Source: Chitinophagales bacterium (GTDB taxonomy: Bacteria > Bacteroidota > Bacteroidia > Chitinophagales > LD1). From it: a stretch of 64,000 bases of DNA. The position numbers were made by a program, and so were the translations under genes. The notes beneath the pieces are model-generated. The model was not told the DNA's origin and made no database searches. It saw only the letters and a program-made list of their open reading frames with translations. This document shows positions 50,336 through 63,009 of the stretch, one piece after another. How positions within the stretch are numbered: the stretch's first letter is position 1; the number at the start of each line of letters is the position of its first letter. Location: the NCBI GenBank assembly GCA_016786765.1, contig JAEUUZ010000003.1, positions 186,001-250,000 on the forward strand. Direction: 5' to 3'.

Positions 50336-51237
50336 TCTTTCAGCATACTTTTTGCAAAACGGAAAATCGAAAACGACTGTTCTTCAATGGCAGCGGCCAC
50401 AGATCGTTTAAGTTGTTGTTTATCGAAGCCTTTCATTTTTTCTTCTTGTAGAATGCGATAGACTTTATCGGTGATTAACTGCAAACGAAGCGGACTCTTC
50501 GCTTTATTGACAATCGTAGTTTGAAGCGTTGAAAACAGCTCTTCAATCCCTATCGATTGAACAGCAACGGTTTTTACTATAGGCGTATCAGGACGATTAT
50601 TGATATGCAGTTGCTGAGAAAGATTGTTGTAAAAAAGCTCTGCATCAGGGCGGTCGGCTTTGTTAATCACAAACACATCTGCAATCTCCATAATTCCTGC
50701 CTTCATGGCTTGTACACTGTCACCGGCTTCCGGTACAAGTACTACGACTGTAGCATCAGCCAGACCTGCTATCTCTACTTCACTTTGACCCACTCCAACC
50801 GTCTCAACAAAGATATAGTCGAAAGCATAACTTTTCATCACTTCAGTTACCTCAATAATTTTAGACGACAATCCCCCCAACGAACCTCTAGAGGCTAATG
50901 ACCGAATAAACAAATTCGGATTGTTGAAGTGGTGTGACATGCGTAATCTGTCGCCTAACAACGCACCAAAATTGAATGGCGAAGAGGGATCAATTAAAAC
51001 CAATCCAATTTTTTTGTCTTGCGATAATAAAAGTTGCAAAAGTGCGTTGAGTAACGTGCTTTTCCCTGCACCCGGAGGTCCAGTGATGCCGATAATGGGA
51101 ATAGCACTTGGTTCCAAATGTTGTAAGATGTCTAGTCCTTGCATCGTATCATTCTCCACTAAAGAAATAGATCGTGCAAGTGTTTTGAAATCGTTGATAT
51201 GGTTAATCTTTGGCAACAGAAAATGTTTAGATTGCAT
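50332..51237 (-). CDS. meaB: Methylmalonyl-CoA mutase-associated GTPase MeaB
   Basis: The enzyme is about 301 residues from the ATG at 51237 (MQSKHFLLPKINHIND). GITGPPGAGKSTLLNALL is Walker A, VLIDPSSPFNFGALLGDRLRM the family-specific segment with switch residues, VETVGVGQSEVEIAGLAD the G3 region and VINKADRPDAELF the base-binding NKxD. MeaB escorts cobalamin to, and protects, methylmalonyl-CoA mutase; the mutase genes are not in this window. An ATG further upstream would extend it by 11 residues into the divergent gene. The stop overlaps ybeY by 4 bases. Confidence 0.93.
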   Translation of the reverse strand: MQSKHFLLPKINHINDFKTLARSISLVENDTMQGLDILQHLEPSAIPIIGITGPPGAGKSTLLNALLQLLLSQDKKIGLVLIDPSSPFNFGALLGDRLRMSHHFNNPNLFIRSLASRGSLGGLSSKIIEVTEVMKSYAFDYIFVETVGVGQSEVEIAGLADATVVVLVPEAGDSVQAMKAGIMEIADVFVINKADRPDAELFYNNLSQQLHINNRPDTPIVKTVAVQSIGIEELFSTLQTTIVNKAKSPLRLQLITDKVYRILQEEKMKGFDKQQLKRSVAAAIEEQSFSIFRFAKSMLKD

Positions 51238-52494
51238 AAAAATAAAAAAGCTGCATTGACTTCTGCACAAAAATTATTTGGCGTTGAAAATCTCTCATTA
51301 TCTGAGCGGCTTGTTCTGTTCTTTTGTAGTCTGATTTTTATAGGTTTTGTTTCTTCAAGAGTGTTGATCTCAATTGGAGTAGTTGGGCTATTACTTAGCG
51401 GGATTTATATGCGAACGGTTTCAAAAGAAACACATTGGCGCTGGATTCTCTTTACACCGATTTTATTTTTCGCAATCCTTCTTCTTTCGTGGTTTAATTC
51501 CGATAACAAAGAGATGTGGGCCATGTGGCTTGCGCTCAAGTTGCCATTTTTAATTTTACCGATTGCGTTCATTTTGATGGAAGACTTTTCAGCAGTCTTT
51601 ATTCGCCATGTTTTTACCGTCTTTATTGGAGTCATGATTGGTAGTATGATAGTTGTTTTTATTCGCTACACACTGGATTACGAGCAAATCAACATTTCGT
51701 TAAGTGCAGGAGGCCGAATGCCGGTGCCTTATTCGCATATTCGTTATAGCTTGTTGCTTACGGTTGCTAACTTTGTAAGTATTTGGTTGTATTGGACAAG
51801 GAAGCATATGTTTTATCTTTTTGCTGCACTTTTTTTCTTTGGCTCATTGCATTTCATTTCAGTGCGCAGTGGGTTGTTGGCTTTGTATGTAGGACTAACA
51901 TTTATACTGATTTATTTTGCTGTTGTCAAAAAACATTGGAAATACGGACTTATAGGTATTGTGGCATCCATTTTGATTTCAATTACTGCATACCAAACAA
52001 TTCCTTCTCTACAAAACCGAATAGCTTTTATGCGTTACGATTTCGGGCAATGGAAACAAGGTAATATTGACGGAAATTCTGACGCTATGCGCCTTGCATC
52101 CATTGTAACGGGCTATCAACTATGGCAAAAGAATGTTTGGCTAGGTGTAGGATCAGGCGATATTTTACATGACTCAAAACAACTAGAGCAATCGCTATTT
52201 CCCAACATTCACGATGCAACAAGTTTAAAGATGCCGCACAATGAATTCCTTTGGACAGTTTGTGTTTTGGGTGTTTTAGGCCTAGTTTTATTCTTCGTTG
52301 CTTGGATATTGCCATTTTTTGTTTTTGCACACCAACTCCATTGGCTGTATGTAGCCATTCAACTTGTTTTTTTTGTTTCCTTTATGGTGGAATATACCAT
52401 TGAAGAGCAAATCGGAGGCACCTTCTTTGTGCTGTTTCAATTGTTGTTTTATAAATGGTTTAGCACAGAAAAATGGAACCCGTCTCGGTTGTAA
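51223..52494 (+). CDS. O-antigen ligase/polymerase-like (Wzy/WaaL) membrane protein
   Basis: The 423-residue protein starts at 51223 (MFRLHKNKKAALTS), overlapping the 5' end of meaB by 15 bases; an ATG 24 bases upstream is also possible. About ten to eleven transmembrane helices are visible, with a large periplasmic loop (about 260-345) containing WLGVGSGDI and ending in KMPHNEFLWTVCVLGVLGL, the pattern of the Wzy_C/O-antigen ligase family. The SVRSGLLALYVGL segment fits the conserved Arg region. It leads a four-gene set whose other members are soluble glycosyltransferases, so it probably polymerises or ligates the glycan they make. Confidence 0.85.
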   Translation: MFRLHKNKKAALTSAQKLFGVENLSLSERLVLFFCSLIFIGFVSSRVLISIGVVGLLLSGIYMRTVSKETHWRWILFTPILFFAILLLSWFNSDNKEMWAMWLALKLPFLILPIAFILMEDFSAVFIRHVFTVFIGVMIGSMIVVFIRYTLDYEQINISLSAGGRMPVPYSHIRYSLLLTVANFVSIWLYWTRKHMFYLFAALFFFGSLHFISVRSGLLALYVGLTFILIYFAVVKKHWKYGLIGIVASILISITAYQTIPSLQNRIAFMRYDFGQWKQGNIDGNSDAMRLASIVTGYQLWQKNVWLGVGSGDILHDSKQLEQSLFPNIHDATSLKMPHNEFLWTVCVLGVLGLVLFFVAWILPFFVFAHQLHWLYVAIQLVFFVSFMVEYTIEEQIGGTFFVLFQLLFYKWFSTEKWNPSRL

Positions 52495-53231
52495 TTATTA
52501 CTTTCAACGAAGCCGAAAACATCGGCCGATGTATTGATGCTGCAGCAAAGGTTGCGGCCGAAGTGGTTGTGTTGGACTCCTACTCTACAGATGGAACAGA
52601 AATCATTGCTAGGCAAAAAGGTGTTCGTTTTTTTCAGCATAAATTCGAGGGCCATATTCAGCAAAAAAACAAGGCACTCACTTTTGCAAAAAACGAATGG
52701 GTGTTATCGTTAGATGCCGATGAAGTCCTTTCAGAAGAGGCTATTCAGGAAATACAACAACTAAAAGATTGGAACAAATATGATGCGTTTTCTTTTAATC
52801 GGTTGAATAATTATTGCGGACAATGGATCAAACACGGAGGTTGGTATCCTGATAGAAAAACAAGGTTGTTTAAAAAATCAGCCGGACAGTGGGGCGGTAC
52901 AAATCCGCACGATAAATTTGAATTGAAGAATCCGTCAAGTGTTAAGCATATTGATGCGGATATCTTACATTATTCCTATCGAACACAAGCAGAACATATT
53001 GCACAATCTCAAAAATTTTCAGCAATTGCAGCCAAGGCTTTGTATGCCACGGGTAAACGTAATGTTTTATTAAAAGTGCTTTTTGCCGCACCGGTGAAAT
53101 TTATACGGGATTATATTTTTCGTCTTGGTTTTTTAGACGGCACGAATGGATTTAATATTGCCTATATTTCAGCAAAGGCAGTGTATTGGAAATACAGTAT
53201 GCTTCAACAACTTAATCGCACAAAAGCATGA
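52473..53231 (+). CDS. Glycosyltransferase family 2 (WaaE-like)
   Basis: The 252-residue enzyme has the GT-A fold: VSVVIITFNEAENIGRCIDAA, VVVLDSYSTDGTEIIA, and the DxD-like SLDADEVLSEE. FSFNRLNNYCGQWIKHGGWYPDRKTRLFKK and GGTNPHDKFEL are close to the WaaE/KdtX group that adds beta-glucose to the LPS core. The C-terminus has an amphipathic or membrane-associated helix (FIRDYIFRLGFLDGTNGF). The gene overlaps the ligase-like gene by 22 bases and the next gene by 4 bases. The acceptor is inferred from family and context only. Confidence 0.9.
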   Translation: MEPVSVVIITFNEAENIGRCIDAAAKVAAEVVVLDSYSTDGTEIIARQKGVRFFQHKFEGHIQQKNKALTFAKNEWVLSLDADEVLSEEAIQEIQQLKDWNKYDAFSFNRLNNYCGQWIKHGGWYPDRKTRLFKKSAGQWGGTNPHDKFELKNPSSVKHIDADILHYSYRTQAEHIAQSQKFSAIAAKALYATGKRNVLLKVLFAAPVKFIRDYIFRLGFLDGTNGFNIAYISAKAVYWKYSMLQQLNRTKA

Positions 53232-54268
53232 AAGTGTTTGTTGACATGGAGAAACTTAAAGCGCCTAATAGTGGCTTGGGTGTGTTTTGTAACGAACTTG
53301 GTAAAGCATTTATGCGACAAGCTAAAACCGTTTCGTTCTCTTTTTTTGTGCCGAAAGAAATGTTCGGTTGCTTTGGAACAACGGCCAACTACATAGCTCA
53401 ATCCATTCATCACAAAATCTTTGCACCGCAAGAGGCGTTTGATGTGTGGCATTGTACTCACCAAGATTCGACTTATTTTCCGGGCAATCGAAACACCAAA
53501 GTTTTATTGACTATACACGATTTAAATTATTTGCACAAGTACACCGGCATAAAGCGTAAGCTAAAGCAGTATCGTTTGCAAAAACGCATTGAACGAGCAG
53601 ATGCACTTTCCTATATTTCAGAATATACCAAACAGCAAGTACATCACAACTTTAATTTACAACACAAGCCGGAGTTTGTTGTGTACAACGGGCTTTCAAC
53701 AAGCATAACAGCTGAAAGACCCGCTTTAGTTGAAGAAAATGCAAAGTATTTTTTCACCATTGGCGTTATCAGCCCCAAAAAAAACGTACATGTTTTACCG
53801 CAATTATTATCGGCATATCCTGATCATAAGTTGATGATTGCAGGCAAATGCGATTCAATTTATCAACAGAAAATTATGGATGAAGCGGTCAAAAACCAAG
53901 TGGCTAAACGAGTTGTGTTTTTGGGTGAAGTGAAAGACACAGAGAAAAATTGGCTCTATCAGCACTGTGCCGCTTTTTGTTTTCCTTCATTGGCTGAAGG
54001 CTTTGGATTACCTGTGGTGGAAGCCATGCATTTTGGCGTCCCCGTTTTTTTAAGCAATAGAACAGCTCTTCCTGAAATTGGCGGTGATGTTTGTTTTTAC
54101 TGGTCGTCTTTTGAAAAAGAGGAGATGCTTGAAACTTTAAATGCAGGAATGATGCAGTTTCATCAATCAACAGCGCATAAAGCAAGAATGCTCGAACGGT
54201 CAACGTTGTTCAATTGGGATTTAACAGCCATGCAGTATTTAAATATCTATAAACAATTGGCAAAATGA
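53228..54268 (+). CDS. Glycosyltransferase family 4
   Basis: The 346-residue GT-B enzyme has an N-terminal domain with NSGLGVFCNELGKAF and VWHCTHQDSTYF, then LLTIHDLNYL, and a C-terminal domain beginning FFTIGVISPKKNVHVL. The EX7E motif is in FPSLAEGFGLPVVEAMHFGVPV, followed by NRTALPEIGGD, a common feature of mannosyl- and rhamnosyl-transferases. Four-base overlaps on both sides indicate translational coupling. The donor sugar is not determined. Confidence 0.9.
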   Translation: MKVFVDMEKLKAPNSGLGVFCNELGKAFMRQAKTVSFSFFVPKEMFGCFGTTANYIAQSIHHKIFAPQEAFDVWHCTHQDSTYFPGNRNTKVLLTIHDLNYLHKYTGIKRKLKQYRLQKRIERADALSYISEYTKQQVHHNFNLQHKPEFVVYNGLSTSITAERPALVEENAKYFFTIGVISPKKNVHVLPQLLSAYPDHKLMIAGKCDSIYQQKIMDEAVKNQVAKRVVFLGEVKDTEKNWLYQHCAAFCFPSLAEGFGLPVVEAMHFGVPVFLSNRTALPEIGGDVCFYWSSFEKEEMLETLNAGMMQFHQSTAHKARMLERSTLFNWDLTAMQYLNIYKQLAK

Positions 54269-55374
54269 ATATAGGTTTTGACGCCAAAAGGGCATTGAAT
54301 AATCATACAGGCTTAGGGGTATACTCCAGAAACCTACTGAATGCGCTTTTTCAACATTTCCCTAGCGAGTCGTACCATCTGTTTTCAGCAGCTATCAACG
54401 AAGATTTGTTAGCCGAGTTAAAAGGCGTCTTCAGAATTCACACACCACAAACGGCATTGAGCGAAATGTTTCCGGCACTTTGGCGATCAAAAGGGATAGT
54501 AAATGATCTAAAAACAAACCGAATTCAAGTTTTTCATGGCTTGTCGAATGAATTACCAATTTTTGGCACCTCCGCCCGACATATCAAAAAAGTGGTTACC
54601 ATTCACGATTTGATTTTTTTGAAGGAACAACAACAATACCCGTTTATCGATCGACAGATTTACAAAGCTAAAGTGGGTTATGCTTGTAAACATGCAGATG
54701 TAATTGTGGCCACCAGTGAACAAACGAAACAGGATTTGGTAAATTATTTTAAAGTTTCGGAACAACGCATAAAAGTGGTATACCAAAATTGCGACAGTAG
54801 ATTTTTTGAACCGGTAACCGATACCGAAAAACAAGCAGTTCGATTGCGGTATAATTTACCGGACCAATTTATTTTGAATGTTTCTTCATTCTATCCGCGA
54901 AAAAATCAAATAACACTCATCAAAGCCTTTGCAGCAATTTATAATAGAACGAACCATCATTTAATACTTATTGGCGGTAGCGAAAGCGAGCGCAATAAGT
55001 GCGAGCGTTTAGTGATGGAGCTGCATTTGTCAGAACGCATAATGTTTCTTTCCGATATCCCTGCATCCGATATGCCGGTGATATACAAGTTAGCCGACAT
55101 ATTTGTGTATCCATCATTTTTAGAAGGTTTTGGAATTCCAATTGTAGAAGCCTTGGCAAGCGGAACAAGTGTGTTATGTAGCGATATACCCTGTTTTCGA
55201 GAGTTTGGGGAAGATATGGTGGGCTATTTTAATCCAAACGAGCCAATTGCTTTGAGCGAACAAATGCTATCGGAATTAGCAAACATCAAAAGAGATAGCC
55301 CTATTGAAAAAGTCGTTAAACGCTTTTCCACACTCGCGTTCGCCAAGGAAATGATTTCCGTATATACAGATTAA
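54265..55374 (+). CDS. Glycosyltransferase family 4
   Basis: The 369-residue GT-B enzyme starts NIGFDAKRALNNHTGLGVYSRNLLNAL, a form common in Bacteroidota surface-glycan clusters. VTIHDLIFLKEQQQYPFIDR, ILNVSSFYPRKNQITLIKAF and the EX7E region YPSFLEGFGIPIVEALASGTSV identify the fold. It is the fourth gene of the overlapping glycan set. The similarity of layout to the preceding GT4 suggests successive sugar additions. The donor and acceptor are unknown. Confidence 0.9.
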   Translation: MNIGFDAKRALNNHTGLGVYSRNLLNALFQHFPSESYHLFSAAINEDLLAELKGVFRIHTPQTALSEMFPALWRSKGIVNDLKTNRIQVFHGLSNELPIFGTSARHIKKVVTIHDLIFLKEQQQYPFIDRQIYKAKVGYACKHADVIVATSEQTKQDLVNYFKVSEQRIKVVYQNCDSRFFEPVTDTEKQAVRLRYNLPDQFILNVSSFYPRKNQITLIKAFAAIYNRTNHHLILIGGSESERNKCERLVMELHLSERIMFLSDIPASDMPVIYKLADIFVYPSFLEGFGIPIVEALASGTSVLCSDIPCFREFGEDMVGYFNPNEPIALSEQMLSELANIKRDSPIEKVVKRFSTLAFAKEMISVYTD

Positions 55375-59800: not shown

Positions 59801-62742
59801 CATCAAATATTAGTGGGAGCAGCGATAGAATTTTCCAACTTTTTGATGCTTGCGCAGGAACAAGCTTATACTGTAATGATATAGAGAATGGAACATTCTC
59901 CGGCCTAATAAGTGGTAATACATATGTTTTAAGAACGTACACCTATTCCAGCGGAGCTGTTTCGAATTTCTCATTGTGTTTAAACATAACTCCGCCACCA
60001 CCTGCAAATGATAATTGCGCTTCAGCTAAGCCATTAGTTTCTTGTGGTGCACCTGATTCAATAAGTTTACTTTCAGGAGCAACACAATCGTTAGCTGCTG
60101 GTTCTTGCGGTGGTACAGCCGGAGATGATGTTTGGTACTCATTTGTTGCTGATGCAACTACAATGTACATAACAACAAAAGGCTTTGGTGGATATGATCC
60201 GGTAGTTGAGGTACGAAGTGGTTCTTGTAACGGAACAGAGTTAGATTGCGTTGATTTATCAGGCTCTGATGCATTTGAAGACATCAGTGTTTCCTTTTTA
60301 ACAGTTGGCCAAACCTATTACGTAAGAGTGTACGACTATTATAATGCTCCTCCTACTGCACTAATGGGCTTTTGGATTCAAGTTGGTCCTGCAGGATGTT
60401 GGCAAGGCGGAAACAGTTCCGATTGGAGTGATGCAGGAAACTGGAATAACTTTAGTGTTCCTAACTCATGCGCATCTAATGTTGTTATCCCTGCAGGAAC
60501 ACCTAATGCACCAGCTATTACAACCGCAAACTATACCGTGGGTAATGTAAATATTGCGAGTGGAGTGAATTTAACATTAACAGGAAACAACTTGAATGTT
60601 TGTGGAAATTGGGCTGCAGGAACAGGTTCAAATGCTGTAACAGTCGGTACAGGAAGAGTGATATTGCAAGGAACAGGATCTCAAACGATTACAGGTAATA
60701 CTAGGTTTGAAAGTTTAACGGTGAATAGTGTTGGTGGAAGTTATACCAATACAGGAATAGTGGAGATTGCTTCACGTTTAAGACCTCAATCCGGAACATT
60801 AACGAATAGTGGTACGCTACATTTCTTAAGTACTTCTGCCACTGACATTGCTACTATAAATTTAGCTGTTGGTAATACAGGTACAATTTCGGGCAATATT
60901 ATTGCCGATAGATATGTGCCAGTTTCAGGAAGCAATCAACACTATGTTAGTTCTCCTGTTAATAGCTTGCCACTCGCTCAGTTTGGCGCTAGTGGAGGAG
61001 GTGGTTTTGTAGTGCCTACTCCAACATGTGATGAAACGGTGTTGGCATCAGGTTCACCATATGGAACGGTGTTCCGTTACAATGAAGCGAACGGTACTGC
61101 CTGCTCACTAGCCGGTTGGGAAGTAATGGGAAGTGGTAATGCGGATAACGCAAGAGGTTACTCTGCTTATTTAACAGGCGCAGGAGCTCCTCTTTCTGTA
61201 ACTGGAGCACCAAATATGACTGCGAGCTACTCGCTTACAGGACTTACAAATACTGGATGGACGAATACAACCTTACAAGGAAGAACACAAAATGGCGGGT
61301 GGTCACTTGTAGGTAACCCTTACCTTTCTACTGTTAACCTTGCTGCTAAAGCAGGCTTAGATGCGCAAGCACAAGTTTGGCAAACTTCTGGTCCATATGC
61401 TGGAACATATCAAGCTGTAATTATGGGAGGCGGCTCCGCTTTTATTGCTCCTTTCCAAGGCTTTATGGTACACAAAACTACTGTAGGCGGGACAGCTACA
61501 TTTGATATCGGAAGAGCAGAATGTGTAAATAGCACGTCTACTTTCTATAAAACAGGTAGCTCTAACGGAACGTTAAGTTTAAAAGTTAGCGGTAATGGCT
61601 ATAATGATGTTACTACCATTGCTTTTGACCCACAAGCTACCAACCAATTTGACGTAGATAAAGATGCAAACAAATTGCCTGGACGATTGGTTCAACCGAT
61701 GATTGCTTCTAAGGTAGGAAACGATAAGTTCTCTATCAATACATTAGAGTCGATTTCAACCAATCCTTCAGTTGATATTGAGTTTATGGCCGGAACAAAT
61801 GGTAACTTTACGATTACTGCAGATGACCTGTCTACGTTTGATCCAACTGTAATGGTATACTTAGAGGATAAAATGACTACAGCCGCTTGGAAAGATTTAC
61901 GTCAATCGAATACCTATACCTTCAGTAGTAATGTCGCAGATTCAAAAGACCGATTTGTATTGCACTTCACACCTGCTGCTTATATCAATACAGAAGATGC
62001 AGTTTGTGAGAAAGGTGGGGTAATTTCTATGGAACAGGAAGGCGATGTAAAATGGATGGTTGAAGTTAAAAACACTAGTACACAAGCCATTGCTGCGAAA
62101 GCTCAGCCTTTAAACGCAACAAACGCAGTTACACTTTCTAACATTCCTGTTGGAACGTATGATATCGTTTTAACAAGCGGTAATGGTTATGTAGCAACCA
62201 AAACGGTTACTATCAATGGAACAAATGCTCTAGTAGCACATTACACTTCTAGTTCAATTGCACCAACAGTTAACCAAACTGTAGCTTTTAACAGCTCGGT
62301 TAACCAAGCGGCTACTCTTTCTTGGAACTTTGGTGATGGCTCAACAAGTACGATTGCAAATCCAAACCACATCTACACAACGCCTGGTATTTATACCGTT
62401 GTTTTAAAGGCTATAAATAGCGATGGTTGTGAAGCTACTTTTGCTCAAACGATAACTGTTGCTGATGTTACAGGAATTGGAAATGTAAATTCTACAGGAA
62501 AAGAAATTTCGATGTATGTAAATAGTGGAAAAAATCTTAATATTACGTTCTCAGGGTACAAATCAGAGGTGGCAAATATTCAAGTGTTTAATATTATTGG
62601 TCAGGAAATTATAAACGCTAAACACAATACTGGCACAAAATTTGTCCAAGAGATCAGTCAAGTTGAAGCTGCTTATTTAATTGTAAAAGTTACAATTGCA
62701 GGGCAGACGACTACTAAAAAAGTATTAATAACTAAAGAATAA
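56836..62742 (+). CDS. Giant T9SS-secreted adhesin-like protein with PPC-like repeats, FN3 and PKD domains
   Basis: The 1968-residue protein has a signal peptide (VLAICLFALFSVHFANA). Eight PPC-like beta-sandwich repeats of about 130 residues follow, six of them (starting near residues 158, 288, 418, 787, 923 and 1052) opening with PP(PPP)AN(D/N)(D/N/E)C and most having a DDVWYSFV strand and a T(Y)YVRV end strand. An FN3-like domain interrupts at about 698-786. A beta-rich region (about 1184-1720, starting GCWQGGNSSDWSDAGNWNN) precedes a PKD domain (about 1805-1878, WNFGDGST). A T9SS type A domain ends the protein (about 1890-1968). It is probably a surface adhesin or filament. A small gene begins 8 bases after its stop. 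Confidence 0.92.
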   Translation: MKKTFTLLRVLAICLFALFSVHFANATVCGSATNIPSVPVTSQALVCGAANDLSSTTVPTACGGASNNYKGGQEALYTFTPSTTGTYTVSVAGQTWTGIFVYAGCPSSGGTCIGSVGSSNSSKSINVSLTSGTTYYIWFDTYPTPNSPCPGTFSLVLAPPPPANDNCSGAIAFPSIPTNGTCASVTTNTASATQSLAACVGSGADDDVWYSFVQPTGFTTLNFAHTDISGNTDRVTQFFSACGGTSLLCSDPESGTVTGLVGGNTYYVRVHTYGTGTSTSSTLCLSVPPPPPANNDCAGATAFPAIPTNGTCANLTLNTASASQSLAACVGSGADDDVWFSFVQPAGNTTINFTNTTVSGNTDRVIQFFSACGGTSLLCSDPETGTVTGLTPGVTYYGRIHTYGTGTSTNVTVCLSVPPPPPANDDCANAITLGAACAGSPVAGSTLQSTVDAIYSNCGAGGSNTTERGVWYKYVGDNNNVTINTCNATGYDSRITVYSGTCGALTCVTGNDDMGSTACSVSFNRSQVSFDAFAGTDYYVFVHGYQLNPSLSATGNFVLSISCTALCTPIVNNSTCATAISKTVPTSCSSFALNNTCAGTALSEPPGAPLFGTYPNLWYSFVAPATDVDIRATLSGTATNVGFVVYPSCGGTNVGYVYPATSGTNYVFSGLTIGNTYYVQVYTPIANKGTFDLCLFYEPCPTPLTLTATSITSSQANLGWTSPGTLFDVELGSSGFTPTGTPTTAGVTNPFTQTGLSPATTYTYYVRRDCGAGVYSTWNGPFSFTTLPTPPANDNCATAVSINPDVTCTGAASVNGTIQGATNSGVAATTGTADDDVWYSFVAENTTQIVTLTNPNFTDFVTQILSGSCGSFTSLGYYDADPNNLSVTGLTVGNTYYIRVYSYSNGTLFSNPNAQFSLCVQNPPPPPANDECAGAIAFPTILTTGACASVTVNTAGATQSLAGCSGTADDDVWYTFVVPAGKTSVDYSTSNISGSSDRIFQLFDACAGTSLYCNDIENGTFSGLISGNTYVLRTYTYSSGAVSNFSLCLNITPPPPANDNCASAKPLVSCGAPDSISLLSGATQSLAAGSCGGTAGDDVWYSFVADATTMYITTKGFGGYDPVVEVRSGSCNGTELDCVDLSGSDAFEDISVSFLTVGQTYYVRVYDYYNAPPTALMGFWIQVGPAGCWQGGNSSDWSDAGNWNNFSVPNSCASNVVIPAGTPNAPAITTANYTVGNVNIASGVNLTLTGNNLNVCGNWAAGTGSNAVTVGTGRVILQGTGSQTITGNTRFESLTVNSVGGSYTNTGIVEIASRLRPQSGTLTNSGTLHFLSTSATDIATINLAVGNTGTISGNIIADRYVPVSGSNQHYVSSPVNSLPLAQFGASGGGGFVVPTPTCDETVLASGSPYGTVFRYNEANGTACSLAGWEVMGSGNADNARGYSAYLTGAGAPLSVTGAPNMTASYSLTGLTNTGWTNTTLQGRTQNGGWSLVGNPYLSTVNLAAKAGLDAQAQVWQTSGPYAGTYQAVIMGGGSAFIAPFQGFMVHKTTVGGTATFDIGRAECVNSTSTFYKTGSSNGTLSLKVSGNGYNDVTTIAFDPQATNQFDVDKDANKLPGRLVQPMIASKVGNDKFSINTLESISTNPSVDIEFMAGTNGNFTITADDLSTFDPTVMVYLEDKMTTAAWKDLRQSNTYTFSSNVADSKDRFVLHFTPAAYINTEDAVCEKGGVISMEQEGDVKWMVEVKNTSTQAIAAKAQPLNATNAVTLSNIPVGTYDIVLTSGNGYVATKTVTINGTNALVAHYTSSSIAPTVNQTVAFNSSVNQAATLSWNFGDGSTSTIANPNHIYTTPGIYTVVLKAINSDGCEATFAQTITVADVTGIGNVNSTGKEISMYVNSGKNLNITFSGYKSEVANIQVFNIIGQEIINAKHNTGTKFVQEISQVEAAYLIVKVTIAGQTTTKKVLITKE

Positions 62743-62750
62743 TACCAACC

Positions 62751-62963
62751 ATGAAATCATACATGAGAACGAAAGGGTTTTACATCTTAAATCTTGTTTT
62801 GGTAGTAGGGCTTATGCTTGTTGCCACTACGGTTATTGCCCAGCCACCGCCACCACCACCACCGCCACCGCCACCACCGGGAGTTCCTGTTGATGGAGGT
62901 ATCATAGGGTTACTTGCTCTTGGTATTGGTTATGGTGTAAAGAAAATTTACAGCAGAAATTGA
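62751..62963 (+). CDS. Small polyproline membrane protein with PID-CTERM-like tail
   Basis: The 70-residue protein has a signal-like N-terminal helix (FYILNLVLVVGLMLVATTVIAQ), then twelve consecutive prolines, GVPVDGG, a second hydrophobic stretch (IIGLLALGIGYGV) and a basic end KKIYSRN. The PVDGG-hydrophobic-KK arrangement resembles the PID-CTERM class of putative sorting tails described in Bacteroidota, while the polyproline part echoes the PPPPP linkers of the giant protein 8 bases upstream. The first Met is at 62751; a Met at residue 5 is possible. The function is unknown. A strong terminator follows, so the two genes form a transcription unit. Confidence 0.8.
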   Translation: MKSYMRTKGFYILNLVLVVGLMLVATTVIAQPPPPPPPPPPPPGVPVDGGIIGLLALGIGYGVKKIYSRN

Positions 62964-62979
62964 TAAGCCGTTTATAGTA

Positions 62980-63009
62980 AAAGGGGAGTTATTCGACTCC
63001 CCTTTTTTA
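62980..63009 (+). terminator. Rho-independent terminator after the giant-protein unit
   Basis: An 11-bp perfect stem AAAAGGGGAGT (62980-62990) with ACTCCCCTTTT (62997-63007), with a 6-base loop, ends in a T run. It lies 17 bases after the stop of the small polyproline gene. Confidence 0.92.

Follow-up and report, generated by a model that had tools for sequence, protein, structure and literature searches.

Among C-terminal sorting signals, those of the PEP-CTERM/EpsH and GlyGly-CTERM/rhombosortase systems are tripartite and are served by an integral membrane sorting enzyme, and in single-target systems enzyme and target tend to be adjacent (PMC3237569, PMC7468200); a connection of exosortases with exopolysaccharide loci has moreover been described (PMC7468200 and references therein). 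PID-CTERM (NF046080) likewise combines a tripartite signal with a membrane sorting enzyme, with the difference that the proteins carrying it are mostly tiny, have no folded domain and are in many cases paired with T9SS giants. The consecutive accessions of PID-CTERM, the exosortase XrtX (NF046081) and the XrtX-associated protein (NF046082) suggest that the NCBIfam curators treat the three as one system; no T9SS partner appears in the NCBIfam names met for these families, and a literature search found no paper on PID-CTERM, XrtX or their link to the T9SS. As for XrtF of Flavobacterium johnsoniae (Fjoh_1448), another Bacteroidota exosortase, its deletion impaired biofilms and zorbs in the same way as deletions of the T9SS genes porU, porV, porZ and sprA, and the study named the substrates of XrtF as future work (PMC10936215). 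That phenotype fits a link between T9SS and exosortase; XrtF and XrtX are, however, separate NCBIfam models. Finally, in the SprB/SprF type, the gene that comes right after that of a type B T9SS adhesin encodes its PorP/SprF-like partner (PMC9143113, PMC12618676).

The window, that is the whole stretch of 64,000 nucleotides analysed here, encodes a giant T9SS protein and, starting 8 bases after its stop, a small PID-CTERM protein (Table 1). The arrangement is similar to SprB/SprF, with a large T9SS surface protein and, directly downstream, a candidate dedicated partner gene that could serve secretion or anchoring. It differs in that an SprF-like partner is a barrel of the outer membrane that recognises type B tails, whereas the candidate partner in the window is a 70-residue peptide bearing an exosortase signal, and the tail of the giant is predicted to be of the Ig-like type A; no PorP/SprF-like barrel is encoded directly downstream of the giant, and the product of the gene located there has only one helix after the putative signal peptide. 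With the XrtX set, the window shares a PID-CTERM protein that scores over the cut-off; sister loci pair PID-CTERM with XrtX and with XrtX-associated proteins scoring over or below cut-off, whereas in the window it is paired with a T9SS giant, with no local exosortase, and no XrtX-associated protein was found in the genome. The earlier note knew of no described function for such a pair, and this stands for the pair itself but not for its components, PID-CTERM and XrtX being named NCBIfam families.

Table 1. Features of the giant/PID-CTERM locus (window coordinates), and the unpaired exosortase of the same genome (locus coordinates)
Feature	Position	Strand	Basis or content
Polysaccharide gene cluster: Wzy/O-antigen-ligase-like protein and three glycosyltransferases	51199..55374	+	PF04932, PF00535, PF00534
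Giant T9SS protein, 1968 aa	56836..62742	+	Signal peptide, 7 GBD_T9SS_assoc, fn3, C-terminal module, PKD, T9SS tail
C-terminal module of giant, residues 1181-1790	60376..62205	+	Also in almost every giant that directly precedes a PID-CTERM gene
PKD domain of giant	62266..62460	+	PF18911, 52 bits
T9SS C-terminal sorting domain of giant, without YPNP motif	62515..62730	+	TIGR04183 and predicted fold
Small PID-CTERM protein, 70 aa	62751..62963	+	ORF; NF046080 match
Predicted signal peptide of small protein, residues 1-30	62751..62840	+	Translation; probable cleavage between VIA and Q
Twelve-proline linker, residues 32-43	62844..62879	+	Translation; CCA/CCG codons mixed
PID-CTERM sorting signal (PVDGG, helix, basic end), residues 45-69	62883..62957	+	NF046080
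Terminator-like hairpin 3' of small gene	62979..63006	+	12 pairs, loop 4, T-rich tail; consensus match only
Unpaired XrtX-like exosortase and overlapping 285-aa membrane protein	L040:6567-7978 (contig C46)		Beside gldB (TIGR03514, 234 bits)

Regarding the small protein, its translation consists of MKSYMRTKGFYILNLVLVVGLMLVATTVIA, then Q, twelve prolines, GVPVDGG, IIGLLALGIGYGV and KKIYSRN, hence a putative signal peptide, a proline linker, PVDGG, one membrane helix and a basic end; by eye, the N-terminal hydrophobic segment ends at VIA-Q. The PID_CTERM model matched the last part of the protein over all its positions (1-25 of 25) with 34.8 bits and E 1e-8, against a curated cut-off of 26 bits, and our own 48-row PID profile, of which the window tail is itself one row, matched this tail with E 1.3e-10. 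What the earlier note had called a PID-CTERM-like tail is thus a true PID_CTERM, and the 8-base gap, the twelve prolines, the PVDGG motif, the helix and the basic end that it described are all confirmed in the sequence. The scan that located the terminator-like hairpin after the small gene found no hairpin between the two genes, so that a terminator shared by the pair is plausible. As for the proposed match between the polyproline of the small protein and the hinges of the giant, the giant does contain five runs of 4-5 prolines, but the match is coincidental, as the other PID-linked giants do not have such runs: in the order sample, a run of four prolines occurred in none of the other giants or other genes directly upstream of PID-CTERM, and linkers rich in Pro or Gly are the norm in PID-CTERM proteins, whatever the neighbour. 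In many loci of the class sample, among them L112, L116 and L159, a Cys-x4-Cys pair (CWPPPC or similar) is conserved just before PIDGG, a pattern that suggests a disulfide or a metal site in the mature peptide; the small protein of the window does not have this pair.

The giant, in turn, contains seven PF23759 domains (GBD_T9SS_assoc), fn3 and PKD, as identified by profile search. Its tail scored 22.6 bits with TIGR04183, just under the cut-off of 23; the last 95 residues were predicted to form seven strands in an Ig-like fold (pLDDT 86), and the top PDB matches of this model, with E values from 1e-3 to 2e-3 and TM scores of 0.65-0.82, include the T9SS cargo tails of translocon structures (8glk_D, 8gl6_D, 8gl8_D). 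On this modelled fold, the tail is assigned as a T9SS C-terminal domain of the Ig-like type A. The possibility of a special tail subtype tied to the PID linkage was set aside: YPNP occurs in 6 of 57 PID-linked giants and in 3 of 14 other module genes, so its absence seems to characterise the module family as a whole; the comparison with other T9SS genes is biased, the profile having been built from YPNP tails.

The genome of the window has at least 150 T9SS tails, hence a single adjacency means little, and the pairing could in principle have no function at all, with T9SS genes so common that chance or shared inheritance would suffice. PID-CTERM genes were therefore sampled at two levels, in the order (150 genomes) and in the class (295 genomes), and 143 neighbourhoods were read, the background being the other genes in the same stretches; gene calling was crude, and the counts that follow allow for kinship only through a tally of families and genera. 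A T9SS tail was present in the directly upstream, same-strand gene at 16 of 42 order loci (background 6/311) and at 37 of 99 class loci (background 20/600); counting a tail or the C-terminal module described below, the class figure was 42 of 99. These paired cases come from 19 of the 32 families and 34 of the 61 genera, a spread that makes the effect of a single lineage unlikely, and the median gap from giant to PID gene was 26-40 bp. The lack of function is very improbable in view of these numbers: T9SS neighbours precede 37% of PID genes at class loci, against a background of 3.3% and 3 of 173 for other small ORFs, the pairing extends to 34 genera, and the partner belongs to one module family instead of being any T9SS protein. 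The giant/PID pairing is recurrent across many Bacteroidota families and not incidental. The survey that the earlier note had proposed accordingly returned a preference for T9SS neighbours and not the indifference that would have spoken against its idea, and the two distinct sorting signals that it thought might be coupled do lie next to each other within a single gene unit, repeatedly. It should be noted that more than half of the PID-CTERM genes (e.g., L043, L044, L064) have no T9SS gene directly upstream, which counts against a partner role.

Almost all giants upstream of PID-CTERM genes have in common a C-terminal module of ~540 residues, with an identity of roughly 25-45% among them. No Pfam family matched it over cut-off, SoxZ-like matches being weak; its structure was modelled with a pLDDT of 83.7, and a PDB fold search with this confident model gave no significant match. 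Searching named genomes with the module only retrieved 80 loci, from assemblies of Chitinophagales, Hymenobacter, Rufibacter, Bacteroidales and Chlorobiota, among others. A PID-like small ORF started at most 100 bp after the stop of the giant in 28 of 79 module-found loci, of which at least 6 are in genomes of the order sample, so that not all are independent; within 2.5 kb of these giants the only other PID-like ORF was at 739 bp. Some of the giants of the order sample have PID genes that the PID_CTERM model missed (L095, L097, L098, L099, L106, L108, L109), and several Bacteroidales tails read APIGGG or APIGSG in place of PIDGG. Off-consensus tails (PIGGG, PIGSG, PIGNG, SISGG, SIGGG) directly after module giants were noted at L235, L238, L240, L242, L249, L271 and L273, mostly in Bacteroidales assemblies. 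Against a partner role, five of the seven module giants in the genome of the window have no adjoining PID gene, nor do most T9SS proteins, which indicates that the peptide is not generally needed. Two giants of this genome, on contigs C40 (L090) and C6 (L091), have the module and a tail of the window type but lack a PID gene; a single PID peptide may be enough for several giants.

As for the enzyme, an exosortase (TIGR04178) was found in 127 of 132 PID-positive versus 57 of 163 PID-negative genomes of the class (Fisher 4e-31), and in 29 of 30 versus 37 of 120 genomes of the order (1e-11). At 52 class loci it was encoded within three genes downstream of PID, and full triads of T9SS protein, PID and exosortase occurred in 11 families. 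Three PID-adjacent exosortases of the class were tested, and all were XrtX with 180-249 bits (cut-off 170 bits); each was followed by a match to the XrtX-associated model, one of these matches passing the cut-off and two falling short of it. XrtF was set aside as the PID enzyme, as the PID-adjacent exosortases tested scored best as XrtX. The processing enzyme that the earlier note suggested looking for hence has a candidate, an exosortase of the XrtX type that co-occurs with the tail and is often adjacent to it. This co-occurrence, nearly perfect at genome level, and the frequent direct adjacency of XrtX make it unlikely that the small protein works unprocessed, as a peptide tethered to the inner membrane that, for instance, holds or guides the periplasmic giant until the T9SS exports it; such a role would be in line with the absence of an exosortase beside the window pair, with the very short mature part, and with the spacing of 3-40 bp at many loci, which would allow coupled expression. 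In one genus of the family of the window, PID genes (L044, L048, L064 and relatives) have neither a T9SS gene directly upstream nor a nearby exosortase, and adjoin a small alkyltransferase-like gene and a trmB-like gene; their products are apparently substrates served in trans.

In the genome of the window, these searches found three PID-CTERM proteins and three exosortases. All three exosortases pass the TIGR04178 cut-off and contain the family's expected Cys, Arg and His residues, but with 74-82 bits they remain under the XrtX cut-off of 170, a point against the partner role, and they are therefore called XrtX-like. The genome search matched exosortases only on contigs C17, C41 and C46 and none beside the window pair, which also counts against that role. 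On C41, the gene of a giant is followed by PID, then by that of a 285-aa membrane protein and then by the exosortase, whereas on C17 the exosortase directly follows PID; the C46 exosortase, which has a membrane partner of its own, adjoins gldB and has no PID gene beside it. As two PID/exosortase pairs are adjacent, the window PID and the C46 exosortase are left as unpaired halves, and we infer that they work together. The best relatives of the C46 exosortase are in loci with the order giant, PID and exosortase, such as L041/L211 (37% identity), but matching it to the PID of the window by similarity is only suggestive. NF046082 had no match over cut-off in this genome, and the 285-aa membrane protein encoded ahead of the exosortases of C41 and C46 does not match it. 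Within the triads of this family, a membrane protein of ~285-294 residues with no strong family match is encoded between PID-CTERM and exosortase (L038:7992-8849; also L066, L098, L099, L106, L214, L215), apparently in the position that XrtX-associated proteins hold elsewhere.

The polysaccharide cluster of the window lies directly upstream of the giant and may belong to the same unit; in the class sample, a Wzc/Wzz-like protein was encoded within the fetched stretch at 39 of 100 loci, and polysaccharide genes around PID loci agree with the link already known between exosortases and exopolysaccharide. These data are in keeping with the partner role, and they also bear on the main rival explanation, by which the peptide serves the exopolysaccharide, in a role like that thought for PEP-CTERM proteins, and the giant is a co-regulated component of matrix or adhesion, with no direct contact or anchoring between the two, which would share a gene unit because both contribute to one surface layer. 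It draws on the Wzy and glycosyltransferase genes upstream in the window, on the Wzc/Wzz-like genes of the class loci, on the exopolysaccharide association itself (PMC7468200), and on the absence of a T9SS gene from many PID loci; polysaccharide genes are nevertheless not present at all loci, conservation of the module is specific to the immediate neighbour of the PID gene, across 19 families, and the median gap is tighter than simple co-regulation needs. On the whole, we regard this explanation as a serious one, though rather doubtful.

Our preferred reading, to which we give about an even chance, is that the 70-residue protein is the processed peptide of an XrtX-type exosortase system and a dedicated partner of the T9SS giant in surface assembly or anchoring. 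Its starting points are the observed identity of the tail, the pairing, the co-occurrence and frequent adjacency of exosortases, the shared module, and the predicted fold of the giant's tail. Sec would take both proteins into the periplasm, and the C-terminal helix of the small one would keep it in the inner membrane, leaving the proline linker and PVDGG on the outer side. Cleavage near PVDGG would fall to an XrtX-like exosortase, probably acting in trans and most likely the unpaired one beside gldB, which would pass the short peptide to an envelope acceptor, possibly a lipid or a polysaccharide. The giant would cross the outer membrane by the T9SS and, through contact with the modified peptide, would be assembled or retained at the surface, surrounded by exopolysaccharide. 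A more specific version, advanced only tentatively, envisages a third route for T9SS cargo, which is neither A-LPS attachment by PorU nor an SprF-like barrel: the exosortase-cut peptide, on an envelope or exopolysaccharide carrier, would be the dedicated surface receptor of the module giant.

In conclusion, the pairing links two export systems that are normally treated as separate, and the analysis identifies an unnamed module of ~540 residues. A class-wide link between T9SS and exosortase at the gene level points to a definite candidate substrate and a definite partner, with small genes that can be deleted, and it addresses both the substrates and purpose of Bacteroidota exosortases and the surface retention of T9SS giants without the usual tail motifs; it would also give a role to the many proteins of 60-100 residues annotated as "PID-CTERM domain-containing". 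If the third route were true, one conserved unit would join T9SS and exosortase sorting across Bacteroidota.
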